Source: a virus
IMG/VR virus record: IMGVR_UViG_3300042868_008205
Span: 1-64,000 of that record
Direction: 5' to 3' (one strand)
DNA: 64,000 nt
Under the pieces are notes generated by a model. It did no database searches. It worked only from the letters and a program-made list of their open reading frames with translations, and was not told where the DNA came from. Made by a program: the position numbers and the translations under genes. Below, piece by piece: positions 50,310-60,955 of this stretch (position 1 is its first letter; every line of letters begins with the position of its first letter).

Positions 50310-53300
50310 TTAGATATTTTCAAACGAAGCACCTGTTGGTGTAATGAAGAACTCAATATCAATGAATTCTAACGCCTTCGTTGGTTTTAAGTAGATTTTA
50401 CCCACTAATCTGTTTGCATCTAAATCTTCAGGTGTTGAAGATACGGTTACACGGAAATCGTATAAACCTCTATCTCTTCTAATTGAATCTAAGATTGGGT
50501 TAACACTATCTAAGAATTGTTGTCTAACGACTTGGTCGTTTTGTTCAAACAATAATCTAATTGCTACCGCTGAAATTAACTTACGAGCTTGAAGTAATAA
50601 TCTTCTTACGTTCAATCTGTTAAGTGCTGTGTCAGCGACTTGTAATGTTTTATTACCCCAAATTACTGTTCCAACATCAGAGAAAGTTGCGATAGGGTTA
50701 AGTCTACCTTGATACAATGTATCTCTATCAGTTTGAGTTAGTTTTTGTCTAGCTTTGATTGAATTTACAAGACCTCTTGTGTAACCCGCAGATGCGAACC
50801 AAGGGAATGCAATGTTATCAGTCAATGCTAAGTTTCTACAAACCTCACCTGTTGGTGGTAAATAGATTTGAGTATTGTTAACGGTATCTCTTGTTAAAAT
50901 CCAAGGATAGTAAGTAGCTGTATAGTTAGAGTCAATTCCTGTATTATCCAAATTATCAACCGCTTCTTGTGAGTAGATGATATCTAAAGGATTAGTTGAA
51001 TCAGGAGTAAACATGTTATAGTCAGGAGTTGTTGCAATGTAAACTGAGTCAGCTCTTGAGTATTGTACCATGTCTATCGCTTCTTCTACTAAGTTTGAGT
51101 TATTAACATAATCAATCGCACTTGTAGCAAACACGTTAATGTTTGTTGCTTCAGGGTTTGCGAATGTTAATATACCAAGTAAGTAAGCATAGTAATCGGT
51201 GTTTGCAAAATCTTGTGTGTTGTTTTGAACCACAATTCTTTTGAATAAACCGTCACCTGTTGCGGTTGGGTATCTTGATGATGGTGCCGCCCCCGCTAAG
51301 TAACCTGATGAACCCAATTGGAATCTGTCTTCGTTAGTTCTCCATTCTCTGTAGATGTCCCATCCGTCAAATCCACCAGCAAAACATACTGTATATTTTC
51401 TTGAGTAGATGAAATAATAAGGGTTTTCTTGAGTTGATGGGTCTTCTCTGAATTCAGCAACACCACATTCGAACGCTGTTTCACCACTTGACATAGAAGT
51501 ATTTGCAATTGTTACAACAGTTGCTCCTGAGTCCATGTGGAAACCTTTACTTAATACATTCCAAGGTTGACCTTCAGCCAAAGGATTTGAAATCCATCCT
51601 GCTGGTGTTTGTTTACCTTTATAAGTTAAGAATGATTCATCAATACCATATTGACTTGAAAAACCTAAATAACTTCTTCTAACAATATCTCCTGCCGATT
51701 CAACTGTTCCTCCACCTGCGTTTGAACCGAATGGTGGGTTACTAATAACTTCACCAGGGTAGAAGTATTTTGTTTTAAATTTAGGATATGGTGATGGATA
51801 CACGTTATAATCTTGATATTCTCTTTGAGTGTAACCATAGAATCCACAAGGTAGTGCATCTACAGGATAGTTGTCAGACAATTGAATCATTACATATTTC
51901 GATATCAACGCAAATTCACCATCCGCAGAACCGATTTTTTTAGCCACAAAATTGTTAGAAGCTGGGTCCATGTTACAATTTGTGAATTTTTCAATAACCA
52001 CTGGATTAGTATCTGTATCAAAGAAATTTCTTACAAACACATCAAATGACATACTATTATATGATAAATTAGCAATTGAAACTTTAACTTCAGTATTTGC
52101 CGCATCACCATCAGAAATTGAAATGAATTTGAATAAGTTATAAACTTTATTACCTCTTAATTCTGAAACTAAATAAGGTGTTTCAGGTGATTGATATTTT
52201 TCTAAATTGTATGCAATTGATGAAGTGTTTTCACTTCTAGCACTTGGTAATGCAATTAAAGTAGAATTTAATCCACGAATATAACCTTGATTATATGCGT
52301 AATTTAAAGAACTTTGATACGTTTCTTCAACATAAATAGGAACTTCAAATCTTGATTTACCAAAATTATCAACACCCAAAACTTTAGTAATGTACTTAGC
52401 ACTTGATGCTAATAACGAAGTTTCAAGTTGGAATGTATCTCCGTCTTTTGTAATACCTGATAATGCAAATTGTTCATATGGTGATTGAGTAATACCTGAA
52501 TATTGACCTGTCGAAAGTAAAGTTAAATCAGTTAAACCACTTACTTGATAAATTTGTCCGTGATTCTCACTTGATGAACTGTTAGTGTAAAGTGAAATAC
52601 CTCTTGAACGAACAGTTGCAACAACCATATTATTAAAATCTGTATATGCAGTACCTGTAAACGTATATGAATTACCAATTACACTACCTGAAAAATTACC
52701 AACAGTATCACCTGTTAATGTGTTTATAGTATAGTAGAACGAATATCCAGTATATGCATTACCTGATGAAATATCAAAATTAGCGTAATACCAAGAGTCG
52801 TTCGATGCCGCACTCAAATCATTTGCTTCATAATTATTTTCACATCCGTATGGACTGTTATCAACAGGATACGACGCAACAACACTATTATAAGTGCTTT
52901 GAGGTATTGAACCATAAATAACTGCAGTAGTTGCAGATGTGGTTGTGGTGTTAAAAATTGCACTTAAATAAGTGTTAAAATCATTTTGTAATGTAGATGT
53001 TGAACCATCTTGTAATCTATACAACACATTTAAATTTGCAGTTACATTAGCAGGTAAATTATTTGTATTTGTAAATGTTACTGTTCCTCCTGTTGTTCCT
53101 GTAAATGTTGCGGTAAACGAAGTACCTGAAGATGGGTCACCAATTGTTGTTGGGTCTACGTTAGCTATTAATGACAAACTCCAAGATGGACCCGCATCAT
53201 ATCCTGATAATCCCAATACTCTTGTAACAAACAATTGATTTGATTGTTGTAAATATGATTTAGCAATGTATGCCGCTTCATATTTAGGGATTTGAGTATT

Positions 53301-53513
53301 ATAAAACTTAACGGGTTCTGTTCCCCCGAAATAAGCTTGAAATTCATCATAGTTTGTTATGAATACTGGTTCAAACGCTGGTCCTTTTAGTGTCTCACCA
53401 ACAAGACCTAATGTCGTTACACCCACGCTTTGGGCTACGAAAGATAAGTCGGTTTCTGATGTGTATACGCCTGGTGATACGAATACTTTTTGATTTGCTT
53501 GTGCTGTTGCCAT
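50310..53513 (-). CDS. Tail sheath protein, gp18-like (1067 aa)
   Basis: N-terminus FVSPGVYTSETDLSFVAQSV with GVTTLGLVGETLKGPAFEP, then YEAAYIAKSYLQQSNQLFVTRVLG; C-terminus LNVRRLLLQARKLISAVAIR, LFEQNDQVVRQQFLDSV, RRDRGLYDFRV and ALEFIDIEFFITPTG. These are the sheath signatures, including the end strands that lock subunits together. The length exceeds T4 gp18 (659) by about 400 residues, mostly a Thr/Ser/Asn-rich beta insertion at about 120-420 that would face outward. Drives contraction. A TATTTATC motif lies upstream in the divergent gap. Confidence 0.93.
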   Translation of the reverse strand: MATAQANQKVFVSPGVYTSETDLSFVAQSVGVTTLGLVGETLKGPAFEPVFITNYDEFQAYFGGTEPVKFYNTQIPKYEAAYIAKSYLQQSNQLFVTRVLGLSGYDAGPSWSLSLIANVDPTTIGDPSSGTSFTATFTGTTGGTVTFTNTNNLPANVTANLNVLYRLQDGSTSTLQNDFNTYLSAIFNTTTTSATTAVIYGSIPQSTYNSVVASYPVDNSPYGCENNYEANDLSAASNDSWYYANFDISSGNAYTGYSFYYTINTLTGDTVGNFSGSVIGNSYTFTGTAYTDFNNMVVATVRSRGISLYTNSSSSENHGQIYQVSGLTDLTLLSTGQYSGITQSPYEQFALSGITKDGDTFQLETSLLASSAKYITKVLGVDNFGKSRFEVPIYVEETYQSSLNYAYNQGYIRGLNSTLIALPSARSENTSSIAYNLEKYQSPETPYLVSELRGNKVYNLFKFISISDGDAANTEVKVSIANLSYNSMSFDVFVRNFFDTDTNPVVIEKFTNCNMDPASNNFVAKKIGSADGEFALISKYVMIQLSDNYPVDALPCGFYGYTQREYQDYNVYPSPYPKFKTKYFYPGEVISNPPFGSNAGGGTVESAGDIVRRSYLGFSSQYGIDESFLTYKGKQTPAGWISNPLAEGQPWNVLSKGFHMDSGATVVTIANTSMSSGETAFECGVAEFREDPSTQENPYYFIYSRKYTVCFAGGFDGWDIYREWRTNEDRFQLGSSGYLAGAAPSSRYPTATGDGLFKRIVVQNNTQDFANTDYYAYLLGILTFANPEATNINVFATSAIDYVNNSNLVEEAIDMVQYSRADSVYIATTPDYNMFTPDSTNPLDIIYSQEAVDNLDNTGIDSNYTATYYPWILTRDTVNNTQIYLPPTGEVCRNLALTDNIAFPWFASAGYTRGLVNSIKARQKLTQTDRDTLYQGRLNPIATFSDVGTVIWGNKTLQVADTALNRLNVRRLLLQARKLISAVAIRLLFEQNDQVVRQQFLDSVNPILDSIRRDRGLYDFRVTVSSTPEDLDANRLVGKIYLKPTKALEFIDIEFFITPTGASFENI

Positions 53514-56480: not shown

Positions 56481-58232
56481 ATGGAGATAAGTTTAGAGTC
56501 AAGAGCAATGATAATTCTTGAAACTTACGAGGGTGGTAATAACCATATTTTGGAGTTAAAACGTAAATCACAGATTAACAAAAAATTCTACCCAACAAGA
56601 AGTCAATCAGAATATATTATATCGTTCCACGATAAGCAACCAAAGGTTGCAAGAAAGTGGGTAATCCTTGATGCCTACTTCGCTCAGAAATTAGCTGACG
56701 ATAAATTATACACCGAAATACCCGATAAGATTTGGGTTGAAAAACTTTTGGCGGATAAAGAAAAGGCTTACCATATTTGGGGTAAAGTTTTTGACACAGA
56801 AGAATTACACGATTTTTGGTTACCAAAAGCGGCAATCATTAAAGACAACTCAGTCAAAGATGTTGTAATTGATTATTCGAAATATTCTAATCGTCCCCCA
56901 CTTGAACATCAAAAAGAAGCAATCCAAAAATTAGTAGAAAACAAAAAGTTCATCTTGGCAGATGATATGGGATTGGGTAAAACCACATCTACGATTATTG
57001 CAGCATTAGAGACAGGAGCTAAAAAAGTTTTAATCATTTGTCCTGCAACTTTAAAGATTAATTGGAAACGTGAGATTGAAAACTATTCGGACAAACCAAT
57101 CTACATTGCTGAAGGTAAAAATTTTAACACCGATGCTGATTTTGTCATTACAAACTACGATATCATTAAAAACTTCCACGACCCTAAAAAGAAAGATGAT
57201 TCACAAATTCTTTTATCTAAATTTGATTTAGTTATTGTTGATGAAGCACACTATATTAAGAACGCTACAGCTCAAAGAACAAAACTAATCAACGACATTG
57301 TTAAGAATATTGATAGGATTTGGTTGTTAACTGGTACACCAATGACATCAAGACCAATAGATTATTTTAACTTGTTAAGTATTATTGATTCTCCCGTCGC
57401 CCGTAATTGGATGGCTTACGCAATTAGATATTGTCAAGGGTATCAATTTAATGTTGGTGGAAGAAAAATTTGGAATGTCACAGGAGCGTCAAACTTAGAA
57501 GAATTGAGAGACCGAACTTTAGGTTTAACATTAAGAAGATTAAAAGAAAATGTCCTTGATTTACCTGACAAGATAATCACACCCGTTTACTTAAGATTAA
57601 AGTCAAAAGAGTATGAAGAAGTTATGGGTGAGTACTACGATTGGTATGACAAAAACCCTGAAGAGTCAAAATCGTTAACAGTCCAATTTTCAAAATTAAC
57701 TAAAGTTAGACAAATAATTGCCGATGAAAAAATTACTCAAACAATTGAACTTGCCGAAAACATATTAGAACAAGATAAGAAAGTTATTATTTTTTGTAAT
57801 TTTACCGATTCATTAAATAAGATTGCCGAACATTTTGGAAAAGCGGCGGTTAAGCTAAATGGAGCGATGTCAAAACCTGAAAAACAATATTCTGTTGACC
57901 AATTCCAAGAGAACCCAAAGATTAAAGTTTTTGTTGGAAACATTAAAGCAGCTGGTGTCGGGATTACATTAACGGCAGCAGAAGCGGTTATTATGAACGA
58001 CTTATCATTTTTACCTTCGGACCATGCACAGTCAGAAGATAGGGCATATCGTTACGGTCAAAAAAATAATGTTTTGGTTTATTATCCAATATTTGAAAAC
58101 ACAATTGAAGGTATTATCTACGACATCCTAAACAACAAAAAACAAGTTATTGCAACAGTGATGGGAGACAACTTAAACCCCGCAGATGCCGCAGAAGAAA
58201 TTCTACAAAGAATTAATAAGTTGAGACATTAA
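56481..58232 (+). CDS. SNF2-family DNA helicase/translocase (583 aa)
   Basis: Superfamily 2 motifs in order: motif I DDMGLGKTT at about 161-169, Ia LIICPATLKINW, motif II DEAH at 254-257, motif III LLTGTP at about 282-287, motif V GVGITLTAAE, motif VI EDRAYRYGQ. The SNF2 type is clear from the GLTLRRLKENV linker. SMARCAL1-like annealing helicases have this compact form. In T4 the comparable role (fork remodelling, recombination) is UvsW, but this is a different branch. Residues 1-140 form an N-terminal domain that I do not recognise. First gene of the plus-strand block, with its own sigma70-like promoter. Confidence 0.9.
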   Translation: MEISLESRAMIILETYEGGNNHILELKRKSQINKKFYPTRSQSEYIISFHDKQPKVARKWVILDAYFAQKLADDKLYTEIPDKIWVEKLLADKEKAYHIWGKVFDTEELHDFWLPKAAIIKDNSVKDVVIDYSKYSNRPPLEHQKEAIQKLVENKKFILADDMGLGKTTSTIIAALETGAKKVLIICPATLKINWKREIENYSDKPIYIAEGKNFNTDADFVITNYDIIKNFHDPKKKDDSQILLSKFDLVIVDEAHYIKNATAQRTKLINDIVKNIDRIWLLTGTPMTSRPIDYFNLLSIIDSPVARNWMAYAIRYCQGYQFNVGGRKIWNVTGASNLEELRDRTLGLTLRRLKENVLDLPDKIITPVYLRLKSKEYEEVMGEYYDWYDKNPEESKSLTVQFSKLTKVRQIIADEKITQTIELAENILEQDKKVIIFCNFTDSLNKIAEHFGKAAVKLNGAMSKPEKQYSVDQFQENPKIKVFVGNIKAAGVGITLTAAEAVIMNDLSFLPSDHAQSEDRAYRYGQKNNVLVYYPIFENTIEGIIYDILNNKKQVIATVMGDNLNPADAAEEILQRINKLRH

Positions 58233-58244
58233 TCAACAACGGAT

Positions 58245-58252
58245 TATTTATA
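58245..58252 (+). promoter_or_regulatory. Late-promoter-like motif TATTTATA (plus strand)
   Basis: Exact coding-strand copy, 21 bases before the ATG at 58274 and 12 bases after the helicase stop. Confidence 0.5.
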
Positions 58253-58273
58253 TACAACTGATAATCCAGAATA

Positions 58274-59812
58274 ATGAAAAAAACACAAGAAAAAATTCAA
58301 CAACTTGAAAAACAAATTCTCACAGAACAAGCGAATCAAGAGAAAGAGTTGTTGATTACAGAAATGAAAAGAATTGGAATAGAGAAATTACCTTATTCCT
58401 ACGCAGCCCTCAAACAATTTATTAATGCAGAGACAATGGACATCCATTATAATATGCATTATAAAGGTTATGTTAAAAAACTAAATGACGCTTTAGCAAA
58501 GAAAAAATACGGGGATTTAGATTTAGAAAAAATAATTAAAACCATTGGTCGTTTTGATAAAACAATAAGAAACAACGCGGGTGGAGCGTTTAATCACGCA
58601 TTGTTTTGGAATATGTTAACACCAACACCAAAAAAATTGGAGGGTGACCTTTACAAGAAGATTACAAAACAATGGGGAACTTTCTCAGGGTTTAAAAAAG
58701 AATTTGAAAAGATTGCAAAAGACAGATTTGGTTCAGGTTGGGTATGGTTAGTTTTAACTGCAAAAAATACACTTAAAATTATGTCAACTCCAAACCAAGA
58801 TAATCCGTTGATGAATGTTATTCAAGGCGGTGGATTTCCGTTATTAGGTTTGGACTTATGGGAACATGCTTATTATTTGAAGTATCGAAATAAAAGAGAC
58901 GAATACATTAAAAACTTTTGGAAAGTTGTTAATTGGGATTTTGTTACTAAAATGTATGAAATGAAAACTGAAACAAAATTAAATGAATCGGTTAATCTAC
59001 AGAATATTATCACCGAATCCACACACGTTAGATTTTGTGATGCTCAAGAAGTGAAAGCATATAAGGACTTAATTAATGATTCAAAAACAAAAAAAATATA
59101 TCAAGAGGGTATTACCAAGGTCTTAAGAAAAGTTTTTAATCAATTTTGGGTTGAGGGTAATTCAAAAGAAATGTCAGGTTTCTATGGTGTGGAAACAAGA
59201 GAAGGTAGGTCTGTATTAAATAATCTTAATACAAACTTTAATACATTTTGTCTATTAGTTAGGGCGGTTAATAAAGAAATTATGAGAATTAATAGACCCG
59301 AAAAAATCTTTAAATTTTATGATAAAGAAAAAAGAACGGCTAAAGAAGTTAATAGATTTATAACTGCATTAGATTTTTTCAGTAAAGAAATTTTTACAAA
59401 AAGGAATGACGATTTTATTAACATCATTAAAGTACTTAAGAAATTATGGGATAGAGGTCAAAAATCTGAAGATGATGTTTATGTTAAAATTGAAGAATAC
59501 TTTAAAGGAAATGCCAAAGTAACTAAGATTGGTGGTCACGGACAAAAAGAAGACGCATTAAAGGGTATAGATTTGATTGTTAATTTGGGGGGTATTCTAC
59601 ATACATCTCAAGTTAAACCATTCTCAAGTTTTGTAAAAACAGAAGAAATTATTGAAATGTTGGATACAGGAAACGTTAAACACTATAGTGTTGATTGGTT
59701 AATATTCATCAACCCAAAGACAAATAATGTTATGATTTTTGAAAACAAACCTATTAGTGAAAAAAACCAATACGTTTTTAAACTTGAATCGTTATTATAC
59801 GAAATAAAATAA
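58274..59812 (+). CDS. Mn-type superoxide dismutase fused to a nuclease-like domain (512 aa)
   Basis: Residues about 38-230 are a complete Fe/Mn superoxide dismutase. Metal ligands are H58 (MDIHYNMHYKGYV), H108 (GAFNHALFW), D194 and H198 (GLDLWEHAYYLKYRN); the gateway Tyr66 is present. Gly at the site of the FeSOD Gln69 and a Gln in NQDNPLM mark the Mn-type active site. Residues 1-37 form a charged helix. Residues about 240-512 are a separate helical region ending in IGGHGQKEDALKGIDLIV then LGGILHTSQVKPF (about 417-450). The spaced ID...QVK, followed by VDWLIFINP, is compatible with a PD-(D/E)XK nuclease fold. The SOD call is firm, the nuclease call tentative. Preceded by a late-type motif and followed by a neck gene, so possibly a virion or late protein. 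Confidence 0.85.
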   Translation: MKKTQEKIQQLEKQILTEQANQEKELLITEMKRIGIEKLPYSYAALKQFINAETMDIHYNMHYKGYVKKLNDALAKKKYGDLDLEKIIKTIGRFDKTIRNNAGGAFNHALFWNMLTPTPKKLEGDLYKKITKQWGTFSGFKKEFEKIAKDRFGSGWVWLVLTAKNTLKIMSTPNQDNPLMNVIQGGGFPLLGLDLWEHAYYLKYRNKRDEYIKNFWKVVNWDFVTKMYEMKTETKLNESVNLQNIITESTHVRFCDAQEVKAYKDLINDSKTKKIYQEGITKVLRKVFNQFWVEGNSKEMSGFYGVETREGRSVLNNLNTNFNTFCLLVRAVNKEIMRINRPEKIFKFYDKEKRTAKEVNRFITALDFFSKEIFTKRNDDFINIIKVLKKLWDRGQKSEDDVYVKIEEYFKGNAKVTKIGGHGQKEDALKGIDLIVNLGGILHTSQVKPFSSFVKTEEIIEMLDTGNVKHYSVDWLIFINPKTNNVMIFENKPISEKNQYVFKLESLLYEIK

Positions 59813-59830: not shown

Positions 59831-60955
59831 ATGCCAGTTATTCCAGAACCTGAAAGAAGTAAAATTTATACAAGGATTAAACACCTGTTAGGTGCTCCTT
59901 TAAGAAGTGTTGAAATTGAAGATGAAATGATGGATTCTTTGATGGAACTCTCTATTCAAGATTATGAACAATATGTTTTAAATTGGTTGATTGATAGTCA
60001 ATGGGTTAACTTAGTTAACTTAAATATGACTGAAAAATCTGTTGCCAATGCGTTAATTACAAGAACAATGGATTTTGAGCAACAATTTGCATACTCATAT
60101 TCTAAAATTGTTGGACTTCAAGCTCAAGGTCCTTGGGTGTTAAAAAAAGATTATATCATTCTTGAACAAAACAAACAAAACTATGAAATCCCTGCAGGGC
60201 GTGACATCAATGAGGTGTTATGGTTTAGTAATCAACCTTTTACCGCATTTGGTATAGGCGGATTCGGTGGTATGGGTGGTGGAGCAGGTTTAGGGGCAAG
60301 TGAAGCAGGTTTCGCCCAAATGGGTAATCAAGGTTCTTATTTTATGATGTCAGGTTTTGACTATCTAATAAGAATGCAAGAAGCAAACATTTTAAATAGA
60401 ATTCTTGGTGGTTCCTTAACTTATAGAATAACTGCATTACCTGATGGTAAAAAAGATTTACAACTTTATAACGCACCTGGTAGTCGTTTTAGTTGGAGTA
60501 ATTATAATTCATATGTTGGTAAAGCGGTTTGGTATTGGTATTACGAAACAACTCCTGATAGTAGGGCAGACTGTTTAAAAAATAATCCTGATGTTATTAA
60601 ATTACCATCGGATGTTCCGTTAGAAGAACTTACTTGGTCGGATTTAAATGTACCAGGACAACAATGGGTAAGAAGATGGTTCACAGCGTATGTAAAAGAA
60701 ACATTAGCAAGAGTAAGAGGTAAGTATAGTGGTAATTTAAAGACACCAGACTCTGAGCTTACAATGGACTATACAAGTTTATTAACTGAAGCTAAAGATG
60801 AAAAGACAAAATTAATGGAAGAACTTACAGGTGCTGAAGGTTGGTTAACAAGATTAAGACCTGAAAAAGTTATGGAAAGAGAAGCATTACTTGCAGAGAA
60901 TTTGAACAAACAAATGAAGTTCAGAGCAATGCCTCGTCAAATATACGTAATATAA
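59831..60955 (+). CDS. Neck protein, gp13-like (374 aa)
   Basis: Matches the head-completion/neck adaptor pattern of T4 relatives: helical N-terminus IEDEMMDSLMELSIQDYEQY with VLNWLIDSQWVNL, a central Gly-rich insert (GIGGFGGMGGGAGLGASEAG), and the C-terminal WVRRWFTAYVKETLARVRGK followed by YSGNL and LLTEAKDEKTKLMEEL. The ETLARVRGKYSG segment is the most telling. T4 gp13 is 309 residues; the Gly-rich insert and C-terminus account for much of the extra length. gp13 closes the filled head before tail joining. The gene belongs to the plus-strand block, separate from the other neck genes. Confidence 0.75.
   Translation: MPVIPEPERSKIYTRIKHLLGAPLRSVEIEDEMMDSLMELSIQDYEQYVLNWLIDSQWVNLVNLNMTEKSVANALITRTMDFEQQFAYSYSKIVGLQAQGPWVLKKDYIILEQNKQNYEIPAGRDINEVLWFSNQPFTAFGIGGFGGMGGGAGLGASEAGFAQMGNQGSYFMMSGFDYLIRMQEANILNRILGGSLTYRITALPDGKKDLQLYNAPGSRFSWSNYNSYVGKAVWYWYYETTPDSRADCLKNNPDVIKLPSDVPLEELTWSDLNVPGQQWVRRWFTAYVKETLARVRGKYSGNLKTPDSELTMDYTSLLTEAKDEKTKLMEELTGAEGWLTRLRPEKVMEREALLAENLNKQMKFRAMPRQIYVI

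Follow-up and report, generated by a model that had tools for sequence, protein, structure and literature searches.

Why a T4-related phage would encode a superoxide dismutase (SOD) and a nuclease-like domain in a single frame is the question raised by one gene in the window, the 64,000-nucleotide stretch analysed here (positions 1 to 64,000 of the IMG/VR record IMGVR_UViG_3300042868_008205). The ORF at 58274–59812 on the plus strand runs uninterrupted from ATG to stop and encodes 512 amino acids, and the opposite strand has stops throughout. A preliminary description of this DNA had placed an SOD and an unrelated C-terminus on the ORF, between a recombination helicase and a neck gene. The frame encodes both parts, and the neighbours are as described. 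The gene, its segments and its neighbours are listed below.

56481–58232 (+): UvsW/SNF2-type helicase (phrog_62, 4.6e-116), directly upstream in 75 of the 77 loci with enough flank
58274–59812 (+): SOD-nuclease fusion gene, 512 aa plus stop; frame intact on 106 of 108 other contigs
58274–58363 (+): N-terminal extension, residues 1–30, holding a pair of L/I-x-E motifs that end at 17/18 and at 30; a proposed propeptide for capsid targeting
58364–58987 (+): proposed mature SOD, residues 31–238 (Pfam core 37–226)
58988–59017 (+): linker, residues 239–248, between two L/I-x-E motifs (ends 238 and 248)
59018–59809 (+): C-terminal module, residues 249–512, a helical part followed by the nuclease-like domain; also occurs free-standing
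59459–59809 (+): PD-(D/E)XK-like domain, residues 396–512, with E399, D433, Q446 and K448
59831–60955 (+): neck (head-tail adaptor) protein (phrog_211, 1.4e-10), the next gene downstream at all 79 loci with sufficient flank

The phrog_211 match of the neck protein covers residues 8–334, with a long Gly/Met-rich stretch mid-way. Elsewhere in the window, the tail sheath protein (50310–53513, minus strand, 1067 aa) appears to carry a large insertion or extension because sheath families match only its residues 850–1065.

Distribution and conservation of the fusion

Of the 371 relatives that the first scan of IMG/VR gave, the best 80 were retained; each is full length and shares 68–100% identity with the window protein. 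Together with two further scans, 222 loci were examined, which correspond to 108 distinct contigs because many contigs are repeated. The fusion is present in one frame at 220 loci, on 106 of the 108 distinct contigs (the longest of 326 kb), in T4-related phages. In contig L269 the fusion is split over two frames, and contig L226 has only the C-terminal module. Identity to the window protein falls no lower than 64%. A chimeric assembly, which the preliminary description had allowed for, is ruled out by the occurrence of the same frame on so many contigs, and the fusion is a conserved gene in a group of giant water phages. The same phages contain no second SOD gene (one SOD per record in 13 of 13) and no paralogue of the C-terminal module (a single match in each of 9 records).

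A search of one literature collection for phage SODs and SOD-nuclease fusions found no paper on the fusion protein. The earlier remark that no characterised phage protein is known with this pairing holds in part: no characterisation was found, but the pairing itself was already present in sequence databases, in the 501-aa relative A0A6J5L953 (entitled 'superoxide dismutase [uncultured Caudovirales phage]'). This protein has the same two-domain layout by fold search, with 45% identity over 479 columns, and differs in being known as a database entry only.

Superoxide dismutase half

The Pfam domains Sod_Fe_N (residues 37–115, 1.5e-21, 77 bits against a cut-off of 27) and Sod_Fe_C (residues 124–226, 9.7e-40, 135 bits against a cut-off of 20.9) cover the N-terminal half. 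The four ligands His58, His108, Asp194 and His198 and the gateway Tyr66 do not vary among the 69 distinct family proteins, and neither do the C-terminal Gln (Gln175) and the Gly at X(D-2) (Gly192). A C-terminal Gln and a Gly at X(D-2) are reported in PMC10172142 as indicators of Mn preference. Judged by its domains, ligands and Gln/Gly residues, this half belongs to the Mn type of the Fe/Mn SOD family, in agreement with the complete Mn-type enzyme read from the DNA beforehand, and dismutation is predicted. It resembles the bacterial Mn-type SodFM enzymes in its full domain, all ligands, the Gln and the Gly, but differs from them in its N-terminal tag and fused nuclease-like domain.

The nearest solved chain is the Sphingobacterium MnSOD 6gsc (E 5.9e-56). 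The best 80 of 237 cellular matches show 44–56% identity to the SOD, and 68 of these 80 were assigned to Bacteroidota from their record titles, in a scan that was seeded with 8-residue stretches of the query and so does not rank all matches. From these matches, the host may plausibly be one of the Bacteroidota. The whole-protein model was poor over the SOD (mean pLDDT 62, from a shallow alignment) and was not used for this half.

Some large phages, namely the PA5oct group and Vibrio phage 2.275.O, also encode an Fe/Mn-type SOD, but their proteins are stand-alone, about 180–190 aa long and 27–31% identical. The 'ESI-MS/MS' note on the PA5oct SOD was considered as proof of an SOD in a virion and set aside as weak, because the ribonucleotide reductase (RNR) and thymidylate synthase there carry the same note.

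C-terminal module

For the C-terminal 278 residues, no meaningful sequence match was found in Pfam, PHROGs, NCBIfam, PADLOC or PDB, and membership in any named family by sequence was rejected. When bacterial and archaeal genomes were first searched with the C-terminal alignment, 74 pattern matches came up, none of them a relative. A predicted model of residues 235–512 (mean pLDDT 83.7) was then aligned to PDB chains. Of the 48 matches listed, the best 23 are PD-(D/E)XK enzymes with Z values from 7.8 to 4.8, which by the structure tool's own yardstick (Z < 8 on a predicted model) indicate the arrangement of the fold, not the function; the first unrelated structure follows at Z 3.6. Among the matches listed are Hjc, RecU, SPARDA, I-Ssp6803I and NhoI, and the best one, 2wj0, aligns over 102 residues with an rmsd of 3.7. 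The matching part of the model is residues 396–512, while the helical part (residues 249–395) has no solved match above Z 3.2.

In the model, Glu399 opens the helix that precedes the sheet, Asp433 is located just ahead of the second strand, and Gln446 and Lys448 are on the third strand. The latter three residues had previously been proposed to form a spaced motif of PD-(D/E)XK type, a reading with which the nuclease-like predicted fold agrees, and Glu399 joins them here as a fourth candidate for the active site. None of these four residues varies among the 69 distinct proteins. At the fold level, and by the order of these residues, the domain can be placed in the PD-(D/E)XK class, and nuclease activity is predicted. 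It is similar to Hjc, RecU, the SPARDA effector, I-Ssp6803I and NhoI in its predicted fold and E-D-(Q)-K set; in contrast, no sequence similarity to these enzymes was detected, the fusion adds the helical part, and a Gln (Gln446) takes the place of the second acid, the (D/E) position. Hjc and RecU are fold neighbours in the model comparison, and Pfam gave no sequence match to place the domain in their families.

The module also occurs on its own. A 290-aa protein of a 735-kb phage (LR756501) gave a tblastn match that is weak alone (E 2), but a profile comparison gave a probability of 96.9 over 229 columns. The free-standing protein of contig L226 is 66% identical to it, with an HMM match of E 1.6e-12. 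We accepted the kinship of the 735-kb phage protein because of the profile comparison and the HMM match to the L226 protein. Viral contigs scanned with just the protein of the 735-kb phage gave no relative. In BFVD, which also contains the 501-aa fusion A0A6J5L953, we found the same C-terminal module in a marine phage protein of 1113 aa (A0A8D9CCA0). The free-standing proteins start at the counterpart of about residue 250. Despite an identity of only 24%, the protein of the 735-kb phage keeps Glu399, Asp433, Gln446 and Lys448.

As a separate observation, D-P-Y-G-E-E-x-W occurs in seven copies in six frames of contig L226 and in three copies in the 735-kb phage (L082). The frames differ in length, and the motif, a short tag common to the two, was present in no other locus examined.

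The Gln at the (D/E) position, together with a nuclease activity that is predicted only, allows the view that the nuclease fold has no catalytic function and instead binds DNA or docks to the head as a carrier of the SOD. We consider this unlikely, since the four residues are invariant in the family and kept in the distant free-standing relative, and there are active PD-(D/E)XK enzymes with Q-x-K, for example those of Mrr type. The question of an active or a dead nuclease cuts across the other readings of the protein discussed below.

The closest folds, among other nucleases, are the Holliday-junction resolvases Hjc and RecU, and the fusion gene is adjacent to UvsW and a neck gene. A packaging-linked DNA-junction enzyme, similar to T4 gp49 (endonuclease VII), would accommodate both facts: the Hjc/RecU-like domain would trim branched DNA at the portal, and the SOD would be a protective or structural addition. 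The endonuclease VII model was unmatched in six of six records, and T4 gene 49 is named in PMC3014915 among the genes with an inhibitory leader hairpin, a feature relevant to the fusion gene (see below). However, the 321-kb relative has a RuvC-like resolvase, albeit by a weak partial match (phrog_159, 2.2e-5, 32 residues), and the structural match is at the fold level (Z < 8) and common to restriction enzymes and SPARDA. The junction enzyme also leaves the SOD and the L/I-x-E motifs unexplained, and we regard it as improbable.

Late-type motif and inverted repeat in the leader

The preliminary description had noted a late-type motif in front of the gene, and we located two overlapping elements there.

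58245–58251 (+): late-type promoter motif TATTTAT, kept in all 30 distinct stretches upstream of fusion genes
58241–58267 (+): inverted repeat GGATTAT (58241–58247) / ATAATCC (58261–58267), which overlaps the late motif and shows covariation

In the 321-kb relative, 97 of 335 mechanically called ORFs have TATTTAT within 60 bases upstream, about 18 times the expected density, and 45 ORFs have TATTTATA there vs 2.2. In the window, TATTTAT precedes the genes for sheath, tube and neck as well as two large ORFs without a name, of 1680 and 609 aa, and it precedes none of the six genes for RNR, DnaB-type helicase, exonuclease, UvsX, SSB and UvsW. The motif is likewise missing in front of gp6, gp25, the baseplate hub and ORFs of 2419, 994 and 347 aa; the start of the polymerase gene falls on the edge of the window in this survey. 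From its distribution, TATTTAT behaves like a late motif carried by some virion genes, not all.

Arms around the motif were detected in 24 of the 30 distinct stretches; of the other six, five have a different repeat and one has none. In an alignment of 23 distinct rows, 97.5% of the cells are paired, and 11 cells, at two pairs, have changed on both sides. None of 500 shuffles matched the paired fraction, the double changes or the covariation score, and slid versions of the repeat drop to 20–54% paired. On the other hand, two of five covariation measures do not surpass the shuffles. Among 104 other ORFs that bear the motif, 15 have some repeat of at least 6 bases at this place, several of them plain A/T. 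The leader is similar to that of T4 gene e in having a late motif inside an inverted repeat; according to PMC3014915, long early transcripts of gene e fold a hairpin that blocks translation, whereas late transcripts begin within it.

Position and conservation of L/I-x-E motifs

The reading that we favour, at about an even chance, is that the fusion is a late polyprotein packaged in the phage head and cut by a gp21-type prohead protease. The T4 gp21 protease cleaves after L/I-X-E (PMC9026906, section 2.5). In the 69 distinct family proteins, an L/I-x-E motif ends at residue 17 or 18 in all 69, at 30 in all 69, at 238 in all 69, and at 247 or 248 in 67, the other two having V-x-E (three cases are off position 248). 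The linker region 231–256 contains 2.0 motifs per sequence, compared with 0.72 in shuffles and a maximum of 1.0 among 300 of them (first set, 53 distinct proteins), although only 27% of the columns are invariant in 231–260 vs 66% in the SOD.

The sites also correspond to domain ends. Seven cellular homologues end 36–38 residues from the start of WEHAYY, which places their counterpart in the fusion at about residue 233, near the motif that ends at 238. Cuts after residues 30 and 238 would give an SOD that begins and ends as the cellular enzymes do. The Met at residue 31, which never varies, is perhaps a former start codon. The site at 248 falls just where the free-standing C-terminal proteins start.

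Several observations count against such a use of the motifs. L/I-x-E consists of three residues, two of them fixed. It also occurs inside the folded SOD (end 197, in 66 of 69), at 229 (39 of 69) and at 510 (62 of 69), and N-terminally in UvsW and RNR, neither of which would be expected in a head. Close internal pairs of the motif are present in 14 of 129 other ortholog groups, compared over three to four genomes, and the free-standing relatives of the C-terminal module lack an N-terminal L/I-x-E tag. The placement of the motifs may therefore be due to chance.

If so, the fusion could be an uncut, bifunctional late enzyme inside the cell, in which the SOD shields the infected cell or replicating DNA, the nuclease domain processes DNA, and L/I-x-E is an ordinary sequence of helices and linkers. 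The free SOD genes of other phages sit in metabolic gene clusters, none of 29 matching phage records extends beyond the SOD half, the motif is common, and a recombination helicase adjoins the fusion gene, all of which would suit such an enzyme. In contrast, it does not account for the retention of the first three motifs in 69 of 69 proteins within otherwise variable stretches, nor for the fit of the sites to the domain ends, and we consider it rather doubtful.

Head protease, capsid protein and tags in related phages

A packaged and cleaved polyprotein would depend on a T4-type head protease. In the relatives, gp21 is over the cut-off in four of six records and weaker in a fifth, and gp23 is over the cut-off in five of six. 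Neither was found in the window's own 76.9-kb record, itself a fragment, which counts against the proposal. Two capsid proteins of the relatives have LINE-A at residue 60, and the propeptide of T4 gp23 is given as 65 residues in PMC9026906 (section 2.5).

We defined a tag as L/I-x-E-[SAGTQ] within residues 2–16. Tags are in excess in the 321-kb relative (55 of 400 proteins vs 14.2 in shuffles) and in two other genomes (G004, 33 of 388 vs 12.2; G005, 14 of 165 vs 6.5). Against this, the window's own proteins show no excess (2 of 42 vs 1.5). Many tags resemble M-x-K-I-I-R-L-T-E-S-D-L-x-R-L-V-x-x-V-I-K-E. When 230,863 internal windows are scored with a tag profile built without the fusion, both linker sites of the fusion place high, at 314 and 315, with the two capsid sites at 184 and 1291; because the training windows were selected for the motif, these ranks measure likeness beyond that of a chance window and are not proof.

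Proposed processing and packaging

We favour the packaged polyprotein because the conserved L/I-x-E sites sit at the natural ends of both domains, because the relatives encode gp21 and gp23, a capsid LINE-A site and an excess of N-terminal tags, because the linker sites rank high in the tag profile, and because the late-type motif is embedded in a covarying repeat, as in T4 gene e. Its chance is put no higher because the motif is short and also found elsewhere.

In the proposed sequence of events, in which we infer the packaging, cleavage and ejection as well as both activities and their targets, the polyprotein would be expressed late and loaded into the phage head together with the scaffold. 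A gp21-type prohead protease would then cleave it after the L/I-x-E sites. Cuts after residues 30 and 238 would release an Mn-SOD of 208 residues, and a cut after 248 would release a PD-(D/E)XK nuclease-like protein of 264 residues. Both products would remain in the mature head and pass into the host along with the DNA, like the T4 internal proteins. The SOD could clear superoxide around the virion DNA or inside the newly infected cell, and the nuclease could have as its target the DNA of the host or of competitors, or junctions in phage DNA. Among the roles suggested in the preliminary description, namely protection from an oxidative burst, a virion enzyme or a toxin, the virion enzyme is thus the favoured one, in the form of a cut, head-packaged polyprotein, whereas no evidence for a redox-controlled nuclease toxin was found in this analysis.

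The closest parallels are the T4 internal head proteins (IPI–III and Alt), which carry targeting sequences cut by gp21. The fusion shares with them a short N-terminal propeptide-like stretch with L/I-x-E and a late-type motif, and relatives of the fusion phage encode gp21 and gp23. However, family scans found no sequence kinship to IPI–III or Alt, and the fusion has two enzyme-like domains on one chain with sites between them. The propeptides of the IP proteins are 10–19 residues long (PMC9026906), and that of the fusion would be longer if the second site, at residue 30, is used.

If the proposal is correct, it would be a natural example of two cargo enzymes made from one polyprotein by a head protease, and it would provide a testable link between oxidative stress and phage entry. 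The tag motif would, in that case, also allow the cargo of these uncultivated giant phages to be listed from sequence alone. To our knowledge, the head of these phages would be the first phage head known to carry an SOD. More tentatively, and with a probability that we put well below even, giant T4-related phages might inject both an SOD and a nuclease from one cut polyprotein, so that the oxidative response of the host is disarmed at the onset of infection and the DNA of host or rivals comes under attack by the nuclease. The dozens of proteins with similar tags in these genomes would then be a large injected arsenal.

Other proteins with L/I-x-E motifs

In one related record (G001, the record of L068), many small proteins encoded at about 148–223 kb, e.g. 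at L114 and L115, have near-identical tags of the form M-S-K-x-I-x-L-T-E-S-D-L-x-R-L-V-x-x-V-I-K-E. By these tags, they look like a set of head-packaged proteins.

A protein of 232 aa on contig L110 (8893–9591, minus strand) contains 10 conserved L/I-x-E motifs and is the densest in L/I-x-E among the groups of at least 80 aa. It is a likely scaffold, given this density and the location of its gene between gp21-type protease and portal-like genes.
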